Source: Turicibacter sanguinis (GTDB taxonomy: Bacteria; Bacillota_I; Bacilli_A; MOL361; Turicibacteraceae). Taken from it: 64,000 nucleotides of DNA. The stretch spans positions 1,229,501 through 1,293,500 of the forward strand of contig NZ_CP053187.1 of NCBI RefSeq assembly GCF_013046825.1, read 5' to 3'. Below are positions 7,707 to 61,882 of this stretch, piece by piece. The translations under genes were made by a program, and so were the position numbers. The notes under the pieces were generated by a model. That model was not told where the DNA came from, did not search any database, and worked only from the letters and a program-made list of their open reading frames with translations. How positions within the stretch are numbered: the stretch's first letter is position 1; the number at the start of each line of letters is the position of its first letter.

Positions 7707-7754
7707 ATGAATTCAAATTTAACAACACGATTTTACTATAGCTATTATTGTTAG
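7707..7754 (+). CDS. Tyr-rich attenuator leader peptide (15 aa)
   Basis: Short ORF MNSNLTTRFYYSYYC with four Tyr codons and one Phe codon bunched before the stop, and a GGAG Shine-Dalgarno 5 bases upstream. The stop codon abuts the first arm of a set of mutually exclusive hairpins ending in intrinsic terminators. This is the arrangement of a ribosome-mediated transcription attenuator, here expected to sense charged tRNA-Tyr. It precedes a BrnQ-family carrier gene. A sibling leader with Trp codons occurs at 59946-59996. Confidence 0.8.
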   Translation: MNSNLTTRFYYSYYC

Positions 7755-7929
7755 GTTTGTATTTATGATTTCTTCATTTCATCATAGATACAAACCTTTA
7801 GGCGTTTGTCTCTATGATGGCTATAACTTCTTATAAAGTAGATGCCACATAGAAAATAACTATGTGGCCCTTTTTATGAAAAATGGACAAGGTAACCACA
7901 TAGTCACTAGATACTATGTGGTTTTTTAT
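7754..7929 (+). promoter_or_regulatory. Amino-acid attenuator with tandem terminators (Tyr type)
   Basis: Segment 1 (7754-7769) can pair with segment 2 (7781-7796), and segment 2 can instead pair with segment 3 (7804-7818, one mismatch). Segment 3 extended to 7821 (CTATGATGGC) can pair with the terminator-1 left arm (7844-7852, GCCACATAG) with a single bulged A, acting as antiterminator. Terminator 1 is 7844-7877 and terminator 2 is 7894-7929, each with a CTATGTGG right arm and a T run. A stalled ribosome would leave segment 1 free, favour 1:2 pairing and release segment 3 for antitermination. The mechanism is inferred; the pairings are visible. Confidence 0.78.
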
Positions 7930-7953
7930 TTACACGAAAAAGGAGAGGAAAGT

Positions 7954-9237
7954 ATGAAACAAAAAGTTGATATTATCGTTGTAGGATTTGCCTTGTTTTC
8001 AATATTCTTTGGAGCAAGTAATTTGATTTTCCCACCATTTATCGGGGTGACATCAGGAAGTGAGTGGCTAACAAGTTTCCTTGGATTTATTTTAGGAGAT
8101 GTTGGAATCATCTTACTTTCAATTTACGCTGTTGCAAAGGCTGGAAGTTACCAAGCCATTATGGGGCGTGCTGGCAAAGTATTTGGAGTTAGCTTAGAAG
8201 TTATCACCATGCTTTGTCTAGGACCCATTATCGCGATTCCAAGAACGGCCGCGACAACATTTGAATTAAGCATTCAACCCTTTACATCTGGAATTAATTC
8301 GGCTGTCTTCTCAGTTATTTTCTTTGCCGTAACTTTACTATTAACGATTCGTCCAAGTAAAGTAATGGACATTATTGGAAAGTTCTTAACACCAGTTTTA
8401 TTACTAGCCCTAGTATTCTTAATTGGGAAAGGATTCATCTCTCCTCTAGGTAGTTTAAATCATACGATTACTTCAGACGATTTATTTGCGACGGGGTTAA
8501 CACAAGGATACCAAACAATGGATGCTTTAGCGATAGGGGGAATCACAGCTTTTATGATGACTTCTTTCTTAAGTAAAGGATACACTGATAAACAAGAACA
8601 AATCAAATTGACTATTAAATCAGCAATTTTAGCTTCTTGTGGATTAGTCTTAGTGTACGGGGGATTAACTTACTTAGGAGCTACTGTTTCAACACAATTT
8701 GATGGATCAGTTTCACAAACTGCCTTATTAATTGCCATTACAAAACAATTAATGGGACAACCAGGATTAATTATTTTAGGTATTATTGTTGCCTTTGCAT
8801 GTTTAACAACAGCCATTGGATTAACATCAGTGACAAGTAAATACTTTGAAGATGTAACAAACAAAAAATTAAAATACGAATATGTTGCAATTTTCATCTG
8901 TGTATTTAGTGCAATTGCATCAAATGTAGGAGTAGACACAATTATTTCACTTTCAGTACCAGTTTTAACGATTATTTACCCGGTATCAGTTGCGTTAATT
9001 ATCTTAAGTTTATTCAAAAACTTCTTCACAAGTAAATTACCGTATATCCTTGCAGGATATACGACACTTGTTCTAAGTATCTTAACAGCTTTACAGTTGC
9101 CGATCATGAATCAGTTGCCTCTTGCTAAGTTGGGATTTAACTGGCTATTACCAGCATTAATAGTTGCACTTGTTGGTCAAATGATGGGAGCAAAACAAGA
9201 AATAAAAATTGAATCTTTTGTTAAAGAATTAGATTAG
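7954..9237 (+). CDS. BrnQ-family amino acid:cation symporter, possibly aromatic-specific
   Basis: A 427-aa integral membrane carrier of the LIV-II/BrnQ family, which usually imports Leu, Ile and Val with Na+. The N-terminal GFALFSIFFGASNLIFPPFIG and GPIIAIPRTAATTFE motifs are diagnostic, and about 12 hydrophobic segments follow. ATG 7954 is chosen because ggagagg precedes it; upstream in-frame codons run through the attenuator terminators. The leader peptide upstream has Tyr rather than branched-chain codons, so Tyr (or another aromatic acid) may be the physiological substrate; this is inferred. A terminator follows. A BrnQ paralogue with a T-box is at 62210. Confidence 0.88.
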   Translation: MKQKVDIIVVGFALFSIFFGASNLIFPPFIGVTSGSEWLTSFLGFILGDVGIILLSIYAVAKAGSYQAIMGRAGKVFGVSLEVITMLCLGPIIAIPRTAATTFELSIQPFTSGINSAVFSVIFFAVTLLLTIRPSKVMDIIGKFLTPVLLLALVFLIGKGFISPLGSLNHTITSDDLFATGLTQGYQTMDALAIGGITAFMMTSFLSKGYTDKQEQIKLTIKSAILASCGLVLVYGGLTYLGATVSTQFDGSVSQTALLIAITKQLMGQPGLIILGIIVAFACLTTAIGLTSVTSKYFEDVTNKKLKYEYVAIFICVFSAIASNVGVDTIISLSVPVLTIIYPVSVALIILSLFKNFFTSKLPYILAGYTTLVLSILTALQLPIMNQLPLAKLGFNWLLPALIVALVGQMMGAKQEIKIESFVKELD

Positions 9238-21186: not shown

Positions 21187-21343
21187 ATATTCAATTAGGT
21201 TCCGTCTAAAATATTTAAATTAATTTTCATTATCAATTAGAGTATTTAATTGATAAAATATCAGTTTTTATATTCACAAATAAACTCAATTTGATTAATA
21301 TATTAATATAACTCTTTGCACTGCATATAAATCTACAGTACAA

Positions 21344-21457
21344 ACTGAACAGGCAGCGACTAAGTCGTGTGGCCGGGTTGCTTAGCAACAGCAGATTTAA
21401 TTATTCATATTGATGATAATTAACATCTGTGGGACAGTAAAATGTTTCACGGATGTT
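21344..21457 (+). promoter_or_regulatory. NiCo (czcD) riboswitch with terminator
   Basis: The sequence has the czcD/NiCo motif as I know it: ACTGAACAGGCAGC, GGCCGGGTTGC, AGCAACAGCAGAT and ATCTGTGGGACAGT in order, with the outer ACTG/CAGT closing helix. The 3' arm ACATCTGTG (21423-21431) can pair with CACGGATGT (21449-21457) followed by T7, forming a terminator that competes with the aptamer. Ligand binding should therefore allow readthrough into the CDF exporter. This class responds to Ni/Co; Fe(II) has also been proposed as ligand. Confidence 0.8.
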
Positions 21458-31932: not shown

Positions 31933-32695
31933 GTGCGACTTGTTGCTAGACAAAGGGAAGCGAGGGTTTCCTACAAAACTAGCCTAATTATTATAGATTA
32001 ATAATTAGAACTATTATTGCGAAGAGTAGAATGATAGGGTAACGCCTTGAAATGCTCTCTCAAAGTTACGATTAGCATAACATTGAGTGAACAATGGTGT
32101 GTTAAAAGCTCGTTAAAACGGACTAGGTATTACCGTAAGATGTGGTTAAACAAATCACAACACGAAAAGCGAACTAGAGGTAGTCGAGTAATATATGGTT
32201 CTAGAGTCCATAAACTATCTATGGTTAGGATGCTTGCTATAAATAGAGCTGACGAAGTTGGGAATGTAAGGGTCTAAAACCAGAACTTCTCGAAAGGGAT
32301 GTATCATCTAAGTATGATTTTAGTGTGGGTGAGTAAGACTCGAAGTTATGAAAATCCATATAGTGTTACAGGCACTATCAAGCTAAAAGGCTCAGACCAA
32401 CGACCTAAGGATAGATGTAAGGATAGCAATAATGGAACAAGGGAAGCATGGAATATGGAGTGTTCACTCACTATGAAGTATTAATAAGGAAATGTTAAAC
32501 AACTATAACTTATTTTAATCCATGTGAAAGTGGTGGCATGAAGCTATGAAATATTTTGTAATGAAATATGAGCAATAGCCACTAGACAATTTGAAGTTAA
32601 AACTTTAGAAGTTAAATAATTTTAATCAAGGTTCGAGTAAGACTAAGAGATGTTGTAGAACTATCTGAAATTGAATTTCAGATAAGGAGACAGAC

Positions 32696-34531
32696 TTGAC
32701 AACTAAAATCTTAAAGAAACAGAAACTCAGGAACAACGAGTATTACGATATACAAGATGTTTTTGACAGCTTATACAGTGAGTCTCTAGAAAACAAAAAC
32801 TTCACTAAACTTATGGAGTTAATTACAAATAGAGAAAATATCTTATTAGCATACAGAAACATCAAAAAGAATAAAGGTTCAATGACTAAGGGAACAGATG
32901 GCAGAGACATAACGTTCTACAGTAATATGCCACAAGATGTGTTTGTAAAACATATCCAAAATATGTTCCGAAATTATCATCCTAAAAGTGTTAGAAGAGT
33001 CGAAATCCCTAAACCAAATGGTAAAATGAGACCTCTAGGGATACCATGTATGGGGGACAGAATTGTACAACAATGTATCAAACAAGTTCTTGAACCTATA
33101 TGTGAAGCCAAATTCCACAAACACAGTTACGGATTCAGACCGAATAGGTCGACACATCATGCTATATCAAGAAGTATGTCTTTAATAAATATGAACAAAC
33201 TTCACTATGTGGTTGATATTGATATAAAAGGTTTCTTTGATAACGTAAATCACAGTAAATTAAAGAAGCAAATGTGGAAATTAGGAATACAGGATAAAAA
33301 CCTAATCTCTATAATTGATAAAATTCTTAAATCAGAAATCGATACTGTTGGAGTTCCAACAAAAGGCACTCCACAGGGAGGTATTTTATCGCCACTTCTC
33401 TCTAACATAGTTCTTAATGAACTTGACTGGTGGATAAGTAGTCAATGGGAATCATTTCAGACAGACCATGACTACACAAGCATTAGAAAGAATGGATATG
33501 TAGACCAATCCAACAAATACAAAACAATGAAAACCACTAACTTAAAAGAGATATGGCTCGTGAGGTATGCAGATGACTTTAAAATATTCTGTAGAGACTA
33601 TGAAACTGCTAACAAGATATATATAGCAACCAAACAATGGTTGAAAGAAAGACTCAGTTTAGAGATAAGTGAAGATAAATCGAAAATTACTAATCTCAAA
33701 ACAAATTATACCGAATTTCTAGGTTTCAAACTAATGGCTAAACCAAAGAAAGGGAAATATGTATGTCAAAGTAGAATATCTGAAAAGGCACAAGATAGTG
33801 TAACTACAAAATTAAAACATCAGATAGTCTACATGAGAAGTAATTATGAATCTAAACAAGTAAACAAACTAAATGCTATGATTCTAGGAGTTCACAACTA
33901 CTATAAGATAGCAACAAATGTCAGTTTAGACTTCAATAAAATAAATTACTTAACATCAATAACCTTACACAACAGATTAAAACAAGTAATTTCTGACAAA
34001 CCTTCAACTTCCAAAGCTTTCAAAAAGTTTTATGGTAAGTATAAAGGAAAGATAAGAACAATTAGTAATGTAAGTATATATCCTATCAACGGAATATCTA
34101 CATCACCACCAATGAACTTCACTCAAGAGATTTGCAACTATACAGTTACAGGTAGAGCGTTAGTGCATAAGAAGTTAAACAACGATTATCATCTTCTAGT
34201 CAGATACCTACTAAACAACGTTAGAGATTGTGAATCCACTGAATACAGTGACAACAGAATATCACTAATGATAGCACAAAAAGGTAATTGTGGTGTGACA
34301 GGAGAACCTCTTAACGTATGCGATATGCAATGTCATCATAAACTTCCTAAATCACAGGGAGGAACGGATGCGTATAAAAACCTAATATGGGTTAATGAAG
34401 ATATACACAAATTGATACACGCAACTAAAGAGGAAACAATAAATAAATACTTACATAAACTAAAACTTAACGAGAAAAGTCTTGAGAAACTTAATTCTTT
34501 AAGAGAACAAGTTGGAAATTTAACTATTTAA
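32696..34531 (+). CDS. ltrA: Group II intron-encoded protein (RT/maturase/HNH)
   Basis: A 611-aa LtrA-type protein with UUG start behind aaggaga. The reverse transcriptase has KPNGKMRPLGIP, the YGFRPNRSTHHAI segment, GTPQGGILSPLLSNI and the catalytic YADD (VRYADDFKIF). The maturase/X domain follows, and the C-terminus has an HNH endonuclease (CGVTGEPL ... MQCHHKLPKSQGGTDAYKNL). All hallmarks are intact, so splicing and retromobility should be possible. It is encoded in domain IV. Confidence 0.95.
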   Translation: MTTKILKKQKLRNNEYYDIQDVFDSLYSESLENKNFTKLMELITNRENILLAYRNIKKNKGSMTKGTDGRDITFYSNMPQDVFVKHIQNMFRNYHPKSVRRVEIPKPNGKMRPLGIPCMGDRIVQQCIKQVLEPICEAKFHKHSYGFRPNRSTHHAISRSMSLINMNKLHYVVDIDIKGFFDNVNHSKLKKQMWKLGIQDKNLISIIDKILKSEIDTVGVPTKGTPQGGILSPLLSNIVLNELDWWISSQWESFQTDHDYTSIRKNGYVDQSNKYKTMKTTNLKEIWLVRYADDFKIFCRDYETANKIYIATKQWLKERLSLEISEDKSKITNLKTNYTEFLGFKLMAKPKKGKYVCQSRISEKAQDSVTTKLKHQIVYMRSNYESKQVNKLNAMILGVHNYYKIATNVSLDFNKINYLTSITLHNRLKQVISDKPSTSKAFKKFYGKYKGKIRTISNVSIYPINGISTSPPMNFTQEICNYTVTGRALVHKKLNNDYHLLVRYLLNNVRDCESTEYSDNRISLMIAQKGNCGVTGEPLNVCDMQCHHKLPKSQGGTDAYKNLIWVNEDIHKLIHATKEETINKYLHKLKLNEKSLEKLNSLREQVGNLTI

Positions 34532-34551
34532 ATAATAACTGAAAATTGTTG

Positions 34552-34637
34552 GAACGCTGTATGAGCTGGAAACTCTCACGTACGGTGTGAAGTGGGGGAA
34601 AAGATGGAGATAACATCAAAGTCTTACCTATCACTAT
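34552..34637 (+). ncRNA. Group II intron domains V and VI
   Basis: Domain V spans about 34552-34588 (AACGCTGTATGAG ... CTCACGTACGGTGTG), containing the CGC catalytic-triad position; domain VI follows to the 3' end with the branch-point A bulge. Exact helix limits were read by eye. Confidence 0.7.
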
Positions 34638-40603: not shown

Positions 40604-40698
40604 CAAAAAAACTCCTACCCTTTAATCCACGACAAAAAAGATTAAAGAGTAGGAGTCATTAGCTTACGCGGTTAATGGCGAACTCCATCGCCTATTGA
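40604..40698 (-). promoter_or_regulatory. Fluoride riboswitch with terminator
   Basis: On the minus strand the leader reads AGGCGATGGAGTTCGCC, ATTAACCGCG, TAAGCTAATGACTCCTAC, the crcB-motif fluoride aptamer (about 40649-40698). The ACTCCTAC end of the aptamer is also the left arm of a terminator (ACTCCTAC.CTTTAATC / GATTAAAG.GTAGGAGT, T7; plus 40604-40656). Fluoride binding would protect the arm and turn the antiporter gene on. Confidence 0.9.
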
Positions 40699-40823
40699 TA
40701 ACATTATTATATGAGAAATATAACCGTTTGTAAACACTAATCATCACATGATATAATGAAAGAAGTTCTTTAAATGCGACTTTTTTTGCTAAAAATCTAC
40801 AGAGGAACTATTGGAGAGAGAAG

Positions 40824-58983: not shown

Positions 58984-59886
58984 TTGAAGAAAGTATTAGT
59001 GATTGGCGGAACAACATTCGATTCGATTGTTTATTTAGATAAATTGCCACAAGGTCAGCCACAAACATTATTTGCGAGCTCACCACTTAATGAAACATTA
59101 GGTTCAACAGGAGCGGGGAAAGCTTTAAATTTAACAAAACTCGGGATTGATACGACGCTTCATTCAGTTATCGGAGACGATGAATATGGTCATAAAATTA
59201 TTCGAAAATTAAAAGACGCTGGTGTAAATTTTGAGTACGACTTTGATCCACTCGGAACAGAGAGACATGTAAATTTACTTGATCCACTTGGACAACGAAT
59301 TTCTATTTTTGTGACACAAGGTTCTGCTCAACCAGCATTAGATTTAGAGCGCTTAGAGAAATTAATTATGGAATGTGATATCGTCGTTTTAAATATCATC
59401 AGTTACACAAAACAGCTCATCAAACTTATCGAAAAACATCAAAAACCAATATGGACTGATTTACATGATTATAATCTGGAAAATCAATATCACCAACCAT
59501 ACATTGAAGCAGCTAATTACATCTTTGTTAGCTCAGATAATTTACCAGAATATCATGAAACGATGTTGCAATGGATGAGTCAGGGGAAAGAATTAATTGT
59601 TTGTACACATGGTAGTGGTGGGGCAACAGCCCTAACGAAAACGGGCGAATGGATTGAACTTCCGATTATTTCTGATTATAAATTTAAAGATGCGAACGGT
59701 GCAGGTGATAGTTTCTTTAGTGGTTTTTTATATGCGTATTTGAATGGGAAATCAATAATAGACTGTATGAAATATGCTACTATTTTAGGGGGACTTTGCA
59801 TTAGCTCATATGAACTAGCGCATGAAAAATTAAGTGCAGAGTTAGTAGAACAGCACTTTTTAAAATATTATAATTTACATTTATAG
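58984..59886 (+). CDS. PfkB-family sugar kinase
   Basis: A 300-aa ribokinase-fold kinase: VIGGTTFDSIVYLDKLP at the start, GSTGAGKALNLTKLG for sugar binding, and the catalytic ANGAGDSFFSGF motif with Asp242 as base. Sugar unknown. UUG start 4 bases after ggaggggatag. Divergent from yjjI with a shared promoter region. Confidence 0.9.
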   Translation: MKKVLVIGGTTFDSIVYLDKLPQGQPQTLFASSPLNETLGSTGAGKALNLTKLGIDTTLHSVIGDDEYGHKIIRKLKDAGVNFEYDFDPLGTERHVNLLDPLGQRISIFVTQGSAQPALDLERLEKLIMECDIVVLNIISYTKQLIKLIEKHQKPIWTDLHDYNLENQYHQPYIEAANYIFVSSDNLPEYHETMLQWMSQGKELIVCTHGSGGATALTKTGEWIELPIISDYKFKDANGAGDSFFSGFLYAYLNGKSIIDCMKYATILGGLCISSYELAHEKLSAELVEQHFLKYYNLHL

Positions 59887-59945
59887 GTGATAAATCTATA
59901 ATCTAGTTAACTATAAAGATAAAATTAAAAAGGAGACGATTTCTA

Positions 59946-59996
59946 ATGAATACATTTAATGTGCAATTAAATAATTGGCGTAACTGGTCATACTAG
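59946..59996 (+). CDS. Trp-rich attenuator leader peptide (16 aa)
   Basis: Short ORF MNTFNVQLNNWRNWSY with two Trp codons (59976 and 59985) just before the stop and a strong ribosome binding site (aaaaggaga). The stop codon abuts segment 1 of an attenuator whose layout matches that at 7707. The peptide is expected to make the ribosome sense charged tRNA-Trp, as in trp-operon leaders. It precedes the NSS symporter gene. Confidence 0.85.
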   Translation: MNTFNVQLNNWRNWSY

Positions 59997-59999
59997 ACA

Positions 60000-60170
60000 G
60001 GTTTGTATTCTTAGATTGAAGTCATTCATCATAGATACAAGCCGTATACGGTAGTATCTATGATGACCAAATATATTTTTCGTGGTCACATAGAGTTTAA
60101 ACAATGTGACCTTTTTATTATCCTAGGCAAAAAGGGTCACATTGTAACTTCAATGTGGCCCTTTTAATTT
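60000..60170 (+). promoter_or_regulatory. Amino-acid attenuator with tandem terminators (Trp type)
   Basis: Segment 1 (about 60000-60020) can pair with segment 2 (60026-60043), and segment 2 (60026-60038) pairs perfectly over 13 bp with segment 3 (60054-60066). Segment 3 extended to 60068 (CTATGATGACC) pairs with the terminator-1 left arm (60084-60093, GGTCACATAG) with one bulged A. Terminator 1 is 60084-60118 and terminator 2 is 60129-60170. Compared with the Tyr-type copy, the closing pairs of antiterminator and terminator changed together, which supports the structure. Mechanism inferred as for the Tyr copy. Confidence 0.8.
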
Positions 60171-60200
60171 TATCGTTATAGTTGTGAAAGGAGAAAAATC

Positions 60201-61520
60201 ATGTCAGTTAACAATAAACGAGAAACATTTAGTTCCAAATTTGGCTTTTTGATTTCATGTGTTGGAGCCGCACTTGGACTCGGGAATATATGGTTATTCT
60301 CATATCGCTTAGGCGCTTATGGAGGAGCTGCATTTTTAATTCCATATTTCATCTTTATTTTTATATTAGGAACAACTGGACTTATTACGGAGTTTTCATT
60401 CGGACGACTTTTTAAGGCAGGAGCACCGACTGGAATTCGTGAAATATTTAGATCGCGTAAACTAAAAGGTGCAAAAATAATTTCTTTAATACCAGTGCTT
60501 GGGGTAGCAGGAGTTTTCATGTTTTACTCTGTTGTAGTCGGGTGGATATTAAAATACTTTATATTAAGTGTAACAGGAGAGTTAATGACTTTGGATGCTA
60601 CCGCATTTTTTAATCAATTTGCTGGTTCAACATCATCCGTTATTTGGTTAATTATCGCCATGTTAACAACTGTTTTAATTGTGAAAATAGGTGTTGCAAA
60701 AGGCATTGAAAAACTAAATAAAATTGCCATGCCACTTCTTTTAATCCTATTTATCATTTTAATTATTCGTTCTGTCACATTACCTGGAGCGGAAGTTGGA
60801 ATCGAATACTTATTAAAACCAAGATGGGAGTATTTATTAAAAGTTGATACTTGGGTAATAGCCCTTGGGCAGGCCTTTTTCTCGGTTTCTCTGAGTGGAT
60901 GTTCATTGGTTGTTTATGGAAGTTATACAAATGATGGATATGATATTGTTTCAGCATCATTTCAAATGGCTATCTTTGATACAATAGCCGCTTTACTAGC
61001 ATCATTTATCATCGTTCCAGCGACCTTTGCTTTCGGATTTGATCCGGCATCAGGACCCGCGTTACTTTTCATTACATTACCTGCGATTTTTAAAGTGATG
61101 CCATATGGAAATATTATGGCTATTATCTTTTTCTTAAGTATTATCTTTGCTGCTATTTCCTCATCAATTGGGATGTTAGAGGGACCTGTTGAAGCGTTAA
61201 TGACAAGTAGACATTTATCCCGTGCAAAATCAACCATTATCATCTCATTGATTTGCTTACTGCTTGCGATACCATTAGCTGTTAATATGGAATGGTTTAA
61301 TTTGTTTGCAGACTTTATAACGATTATTTTATCCCCAGTTGGCACAATGATTACAGCAATTGCATTCTTTTACTTATACAAAGGGGATATTTTAGACGAA
61401 GTTAATAAAGGTGCTAAATACTCATTAGGAAAATCATTTGTTTATTTTGGAAAATTAATTTTCGTGCCAATGACAATCCTTGTTATTTTATTGGGGATTA
61501 TTTACGGAGGTATCGGTTAA
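60201..61520 (+). CDS. NSS (SNF) family symporter, probable tryptophan carrier
   Basis: A 439-aa Na+-coupled carrier of the neurotransmitter:sodium symporter family (LeuT, TnaT, SERT). Helix 1 is FLISCVGAALGLGNIWLFSY with the unwound GLGN at 26-29; helix 2 is GGAAFLIPYFIFIFILG. The residue aligned with SERT Asp98 is Gly26, as in amino-acid carriers. About 12 helices. Expression is governed by the Trp leader upstream, so tryptophan is the best substrate guess. NSS proteins of Turicibacter have been linked to serotonin uptake; this may be that protein, or not. Confidence 0.88.
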   Translation: MSVNNKRETFSSKFGFLISCVGAALGLGNIWLFSYRLGAYGGAAFLIPYFIFIFILGTTGLITEFSFGRLFKAGAPTGIREIFRSRKLKGAKIISLIPVLGVAGVFMFYSVVVGWILKYFILSVTGELMTLDATAFFNQFAGSTSSVIWLIIAMLTTVLIVKIGVAKGIEKLNKIAMPLLLILFIILIIRSVTLPGAEVGIEYLLKPRWEYLLKVDTWVIALGQAFFSVSLSGCSLVVYGSYTNDGYDIVSASFQMAIFDTIAALLASFIIVPATFAFGFDPASGPALLFITLPAIFKVMPYGNIMAIIFFLSIIFAAISSSIGMLEGPVEALMTSRHLSRAKSTIIISLICLLLAIPLAVNMEWFNLFADFITIILSPVGTMITAIAFFYLYKGDILDEVNKGAKYSLGKSFVYFGKLIFVPMTILVILLGIIYGGIG

Positions 61521-61611
61521 TAAATGGAATAAACTGTAATAAATGTGTTTGAGATGTGTTGACAATGTGTACATGAGGTGATAACATACTCCTAACACAT
61601 CATTTAAATTC

Positions 61612-61882
61612 GTTGAAGAGAAAGAGTAAGTTAGTTTAATATCTCACAGAGAGTCGATGTTAGCTGAGAATCGATGGTCATGAATTAACTGAAAATCATC
61701 TCGAAGAAGTAAGGCTGAAATAAAAGTAAGTCTTATCGGGTCTCTTTTCCCGTTATCAAATAAAGTCATTAAAGCCTGATAAAAGGTGAGATGAGTAGAG
61801 TGCTATAGTCTTTTTTAGATTATAGAATTTGGGTGGTACCACGGAGAATTTTCGTCCCTTGATTAATCAAGGGGCTTTTTTT
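61612..61882 (+). promoter_or_regulatory. T-box riboswitch with terminator
   Basis: The T-box core TGGGTGGTACCACGG lies at 61829-61844, followed by the terminator GTCCCTTGATTAATCAAGGGGC plus T7 (61854-61882). Upstream, Stem I includes AGTA and GAGAGTCGATG..AATCGATGG helices, and the CTGAAAATCATC stretch holds a plausible specifier ATC (Ile) after GAA; CTC (Leu) nearby is an alternative. Uncharged tRNA would stabilise the antiterminator and turn the BrnQ gene on. Confidence 0.85.

Follow-up and report, generated by a model that had tools for sequence, protein, structure and literature searches.

A predicted tryptophan-starvation attenuator before an NSS transporter gene of Turicibacter sanguinis and the probable modular leader family to which it belongs

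In a 64 kb stretch of the Turicibacter sanguinis chromosome (the window; from a complete genome of 3.0 Mb), a gene for an NSS-family sodium-dependent amino-acid transporter (439 aa; 60201–61520, forward strand, as are all of the leader features described below) stands behind a short ORF with two tryptophan codons, raising the question of whether the transporter is controlled as a tryptophan uptake gene and by what device. The ORF, MNTFNVQLNNWRNWSY (59946–59996), runs for 16 codons from ATG to TAG behind a Shine-Dalgarno sequence (AAGGAG, 59930–59935), and its tryptophan codons (59976–59978 and 59985–59987) are both UGG and fall within the final six. The combination of Shine-Dalgarno sequence, start codon, and regulatory codons that marks a leader attenuator is thus present, and relatives of the ORF carry codon runs. 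An original prediction made from the sequence had placed such an ORF directly before a set of hairpins; the ORF stood, but the stop codon and the first helix are separated by 3 nt rather than abutting. Ten ORFs of 10–30 codons preceded by a Shine-Dalgarno sequence occur in the window, and the leader ORF is the only one with at least two tryptophan residues in its last seven codons (1/10). The residues QLNN before the tryptophan codons are common to the enterococcal-type leaders (QLNN-FYFSYFR, then stop). A DNA search of the leader against plasmids returned no match, and among 12 matches in relatives to the pattern of the tryptophan-codon stretch, AAYTGGMGNAAYTGG, 9 of them readable, the only leader ORF was the window copy itself (seen twice), the remaining readable matches being parts of longer frames. 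Upstream, a candidate sigma-70 promoter (TTTACA-17-TATAAT, 59874–59902), proposed solely on 11 of 12 consensus matches, overlaps the 3′ end of a kinase gene, which ends at 59886.

Past the stop codon, segment B (GGTTTGTAT; GGUUUGUAU; 60000–60008) can pair with ATACAAGCC (60035–60043) in the left arm (AL) of hairpin P1, forming the B:AL helix of the antiterminating state. Hairpin P1 (60027–60065; 60027–60038 with 60054–60065), the anti-antiterminator, corresponds to P1 of the RF04312 trpB motif. The antiterminator (AR:3; 60057–60094) joins the P1 right arm (AR) and its flank (60057–60069) to the 5′ arm of the first terminator (60083–60094), and contains one bulged A that is kept across the leader family. 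Two intrinsic terminators follow, T1 (60084–60116; 60084–60091 with 60104–60111, then a U-run) and T2 (60130–60173; a stem of 15 pairs at 60130–60165, then a U-rich tract). The mutually exclusive hairpins and two tandem terminators that had been proposed were borne out by sequence, folding, and covariation, with the addition that T1 and T2 are each also mutually exclusive with a further relay helix (60102–60144), in which the T1 3′ arm (60102–60111) pairs with the T2 5′ arm (60135–60144; −21.9 kcal/mol as a duplex) and which would dissolve T2 if T1 is unformed.

Folding energies computed with ribosome footprints on the transcript indicated that, in silico, the position of the ribosome decides the fold, given the constant spacing from stop codon to B. 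Before the P1 right arm is made, B and AL fold into a hairpin of −15.1 kcal/mol with B free, and hardly any structure (−3.8 kcal/mol) remains with a ribosome at the stop codon covering B. For a transcript extended to 60096, a stalled ribosome favored B:AL plus the antiterminator over P1 by 3.1–3.2 kcal/mol, while a ribosome at the stop codon favored P1 by 2.2 kcal/mol. Dinucleotide shuffles of the spacer matched the energy of the B:AL hairpin in 4 of 5000 cases, and shuffles matched that of the duplex between the P1 arm and the T1 arm in 11 of 5000. Counting against the switch, the equilibrium prefers P1 together with T1 once T1 is complete, whether or not B is covered (−34.2 vs −29.1 kcal/mol with B free), so the readthrough state would have to be kinetic and depend on co-transcriptional trapping.

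The reading that best accommodates these observations, held at a probability of roughly 85%, is a ribosome-mediated transcription attenuator that would turn on an NSS importer of tryptophan as charged tRNA-Trp runs short. With tryptophan plentiful, the ribosome translating the leader would reach the stop codon and hide B while RNA polymerase passes; P1 would then fold, the 5′ arm of T1 would be left free, and T1 followed by T2 would form and end transcription. With tryptophan scarce, the ribosome would stall on either tryptophan codon and leave B free to pair with the P1 left arm, the released right arm would capture the T1 5′ arm, and the released T1 3′ arm would in turn capture the T2 5′ arm, such that one upstream decision would undo both terminators and starvation would lead to readthrough. 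The pathway envisaged originally, in which stalling lets a first segment pair with a second and frees a third to disrupt the terminator, agrees with the sequence and the geometry of the ribosome, with the folding energies, and with the covariation.

Relatives were collected starting from a Clostridium assembly that holds a named relative at 53% and then from 244 related genomes, of which 44 held NSS gene matches with E values of 1e-85 or lower; the top matches were 55–62% identical. For L019 (53%), the upstream sequence on its contig is too short to judge a leader. Most of the closer Clostridium orthologues at this level of identity possess a leader ending in YYYSYYR or FFFSFFR and a stop codon, together with B, P1, T1, and T2. 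Counting against the attenuator reading, L062, the nearest NSS relative on the tree, lacks a leader; in the four other members of the genus searched there was no close orthologue (best 38%, paralogues). An alignment of 40 leaders supported all five alternative helices: B:AL was paired in 96.6% of cells (24 changed on both sides), the antiterminator in 94.3% (16 changed on both sides), the T1 stem in 92.8% (23 changed on both sides), and the relay helix in 93.8% (26 changed on both sides), with compensatory changes in P1 as well, while slid controls for each of the five paired in <60% of cells. In nearly all of the aligned leaders B starts 1–2 nt from the stop codon, a spacing that would be required for B to be masked by a terminating ribosome. 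That the region holds nothing more than two ordinary terminators ending the kinase gene and a chance short ORF, as the lack of a terminator belonging to that gene might suggest, is hardly credible, as the leader, B, P1, the antiterminator, and both terminators are kept before orthologues and before unrelated amino-acid genes in other genera.

For four NSS orthologues (L086, L088, L090, L091), a tyrosine T-box occupies the place of the tyrosine or phenylalanine leader peptide that other orthologues carry, which is a non-homologous replacement of the sensor. The T-box covariance model (RF00230) had no match at 59880–60210 of the window, the nearest T-box being an isoleucine element (AUC specifier; 61604–61862) before another BrnQ-type gene (62165), and the NSS gene and this gene are neighbors under two different starvation sensors. 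Across the window genome there were 19 T-box matches, 17 of which exceeded the cut-off; many aminoacyl-tRNA synthetases are covered by them, and a single ABC transporter (L040/L044) stands behind tandem arginine T-boxes (CGC). Other Rfam matches in the window were a NiCo riboswitch (21335–21439), parts of a group II intron (32006–34637), and a fluoride riboswitch (40643–40701).

Two existing Rfam families overlap the element. The RF04312 trpB motif (SRC-39-1, PMC11109978) shares P1 and T1 with the window, whose 40.8 bits (E 1e-4) fall short of the 59-bit gathering score, making it kin rather than a scored member; leader ORF, B, and T2 are all absent from the published model. RF02863 (Enterococcus sRNA_2410), filed as a small RNA, has a consensus that opens with codons for SYFR and a stop, followed by B, P1, and T1; the window scores 38.8 bits against its gathering score of 61, a score that is passed by several Clostridium relatives. 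In E. faecium the RF02863 RNA gave two transcripts on Northern blots (PMC5593968), which would fit tandem terminators. The RF04312 model begins past the ORF and is blind to the peptide, yet its matches in related genomes still carry codon runs that correspond to the gene behind them: HHHH before hisS and hisZ, LLLL before a different NSS clade, YYY or FFF before NSS genes, and phenylalanine/tyrosine runs before BrnQ-type and ABC permease genes. In enterococcal-type contigs deposited as phage, a TrpX-type ABC gene follows a leader ending in QLNNFYFSYFR and a stop codon (an RF02863 match of 215 bits), and phenylalanine/tyrosine leaders also precede aroE and DAHP synthase genes. Most relatives have three to five regulatory codons, compared to two tryptophan codons in the window leader, a difference that counts against the attenuator reading. 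Five RF04312 matches were set aside, three (L135, L183, L184) that have no leader ORF and resemble ordinary terminators and two (L193, L194) that are weak and have no leader.

Judged from these genomes, the leader family is widespread in Firmicutes and Fusobacteria, with only the regulatory codons (Trp, Tyr, Phe, Leu, His) changing to match the downstream gene. This distribution bears on the possibility that the RNA past the ORF is a metabolite riboswitch binding tryptophan or another ligand directly, with the ORF incidental. RF04312, with >900 representatives, is classed as a strong riboswitch candidate by Rfam and in its original description, whose authors themselves allowed that it might be a classic attenuator (PMC11109978). 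A ligand-binding RNA is nevertheless very improbable here, since the same fold with differing codon runs is matched to His, Leu, Phe, Tyr, or Trp genes, B is fixed relative to the stop codon, and the overlapping alternative helices explain the conserved sequence. It is instead probable, at somewhat lower confidence than the attenuator reading of the window itself, that RF04312 and RF02863 each capture part of a single modular attenuator superfamily found in Firmicutes and Fusobacteria. Its fixed relay of P1 and tandem terminators would be re-tuned by the leader codons (Trp, Tyr, Phe, Leu, His), and the codons would read out the substrates of uncharacterized transporters.

Several records in this family carry observations of their own. 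Although filed under Listeria/Enterococcus phages, the three enterococcal-type records L196–L198 (OR846821, OR847088, OR846630) contain genes of the shikimate pathway and for ABC transporters, and resemble contigs of a bacterial chromosome. Two proteins (L132, L196) match the model of the tryptophan ABC substrate-binding protein and a third (L167) resembles it, and all three have phenylalanine/tyrosine rather than tryptophan leaders; the substrate annotation of these TrpX-type ABC genes may be wrong. In one contig (L171, G410:C6), an ORF for a group II intron-type reverse transcriptase begins a few hundred bases past T1 of a phenylalanine/tyrosine leader, at the position where a BrnQ-type gene would be expected.

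The search of the whole window genome with RF02863 found two members only, the 59946 leader and a second copy at 7707–7925 (forward strand). The latter has a tyrosine leader ORF, MNSNLTTRFYYSYYC (7707–7754), with B (7754–7762), P1, T1 (7844–7868), and T2 (7894–7923), and precedes a BrnQ/LIVCS-type carrier (7954–9237) that is annotated as branched-chain, for which the leader suggests an aromatic substrate. This second member (7707–9237) has an orthologue in a congener (L133).

The assignment of tryptophan to the transporter of the window draws on the protein, the leader, and the genome. The 60201 product matches the NF037979 profile above the cut-off, its TM1/TM6/TM8 site residues fit the NSS family (SNF, 2.A.22), and its nearest solved relative is MhsT (E 3e-65). 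The description of the gene as a member of the SERT family consequently holds only in the broad NSS sense, as the closer link is to MhsT and the site residues of TuriSERT do not fit. TuriSERT is an NSS transporter reported from Turicibacter for which tryptophan did not compete (PMC10707687); it has Ser19, Gly22, and Asn25 compared to Ala23, Gly26, and Asn29 in the window NSS, and by the published residues the two are different proteins.

Counting against the tryptophan reading, only three tryptophan-type leaders were found, that of the window and one each in Cetobacterium and Fusobacterium. The Cetobacterium somerae leader, MKKQLDILKINTSLTETVLFWWWP (ending LFWWWP, then stop), precedes an NSS 50.7% identical to that of the window, while the Fusobacterium vincentii leader, MKQILTTTMRYWQNWHR (ending YWQNWHR, then stop), lies on an RF04312 element whose 68.5 bits exceed the gathering score, with no gene directly behind in that orientation. 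No IGPS gene was found in the window genome by a search that was positive in 14 of 14 control genomes, so the organism is very probably unable to make tryptophan; its trpS is under a UGG T-box. The expectation that the NSS gene is regulated in response to tryptophan is supported by the codon swaps that track the downstream gene, by the two further tryptophan leaders, and by the absence of IGPS.

A response of the opposite sign can also be envisaged, in which free tryptophan arrests the leader ribosome through the nascent peptide, as for TnaC, and high tryptophan induces the transporter for catabolism. Two tryptophan codons near the stop codon would suit such a sensor, and in Cetobacterium another, related NSS (41.7% identical to that of the window) follows tryptophanase. 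Codon starvation accounts better for the runs of Phe, Tyr, Leu, or His in relatives, which have no conserved tryptophan-specific arrest sequence, for the His leaders before hisS and hisZ, and for the tyrosine T-box, itself a starvation sensor, before some NSS relatives; induction by high tryptophan is accordingly improbable, if slightly less so than a riboswitch.

Leader codons also correspond to features of the transporters behind them. On the NSS tree, tyrosine leaders fall on one side of a branch (1 change vs 17.3 in shuffles). The equivalent of LeuT Gly258 (TM6) is Asn in all 24 tyrosine-controlled and Thr in all 16 phenylalanine-controlled transporters, and Ser in the window NSS; the equivalent of LeuT Ala358 (TM8) is Asn in the tyrosine-controlled, Ala or Val in most of the phenylalanine-controlled, and Gly in the window NSS. 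When leader type and pocket residue were compared on the phylogeny, there were two independent contrasts only, too few for significance. The pocket Asn could bind the tyrosine hydroxyl, and Ser and Gly could give room for the indole. Leader codons and pocket together point to tryptophan as the probable substrate. MhsT takes up several hydrophobic amino acids, and the window leader might similarly sense tryptophan starvation while the transporter accepts several aromatic or hydrophobic substrates with tryptophan among them. This would refine the attenuator reading rather than replace it, and is a tentative and less likely version of it, given that the leader codon tracks both the NSS clade and the pocket residues.

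Compared to known systems, the proposed device shares its principle with the trp attenuator of E. coli, with a tryptophan-codon leader in which stalling chooses among mutually exclusive hairpins and an intrinsic terminator. It differs in that B lies past the stop codon rather than inside the ORF, in having five overlapping helices, in a single decision that would flip both of its tandem terminators, in controlling a transporter, and in that folding in the absence of any translation predicts readthrough rather than termination. T-boxes with Trp, Phe, and Leu specifiers have already been described before NSS genes (Wels 2008, PMC2494555) and share the gene family and the starvation logic with the window, but sense uncharged tRNA directly and have no leader peptide. 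The original prediction that no attenuator had been described for this family is therefore right in part: leader-peptide control appears to be new, while starvation control by T-boxes is not, and because of the latter the view of NSS genes as aromatic-uptake genes is not new either. Histidine leader peptides in Firmicutes have been described for his genes only (PMC2965389; PMC9413887); these are leader-peptide attenuators as here, but have not been linked to the aromatic family or to RF04312/RF02863. Searches of open-access literature found no later paper naming RF04312 and no description of the aromatic leader-peptide family. The class of mechanism is known, and the leader family itself appears to have gone unrecognized.

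With the proposed family, an orphan riboswitch candidate and a small RNA filed in the wrong category would become a single mechanism open to testing, and classic leader-peptide attenuation, in Firmicutes reported mainly for his genes, would extend to aromatic and leucine genes. Leader codons would allow the substrates of NSS, BrnQ, and TrpX-type transporters to be read directly from sequence, predicting that some carriers now annotated for branched-chain amino acids or tryptophan are specific for tyrosine or phenylalanine. The family also shows T-box and leader peptide taking each other's place before orthologous genes. For Turicibacter sanguinis, a tryptophan leader before a predicted importer would fit the dependence of a gut symbiont on imported tryptophan.
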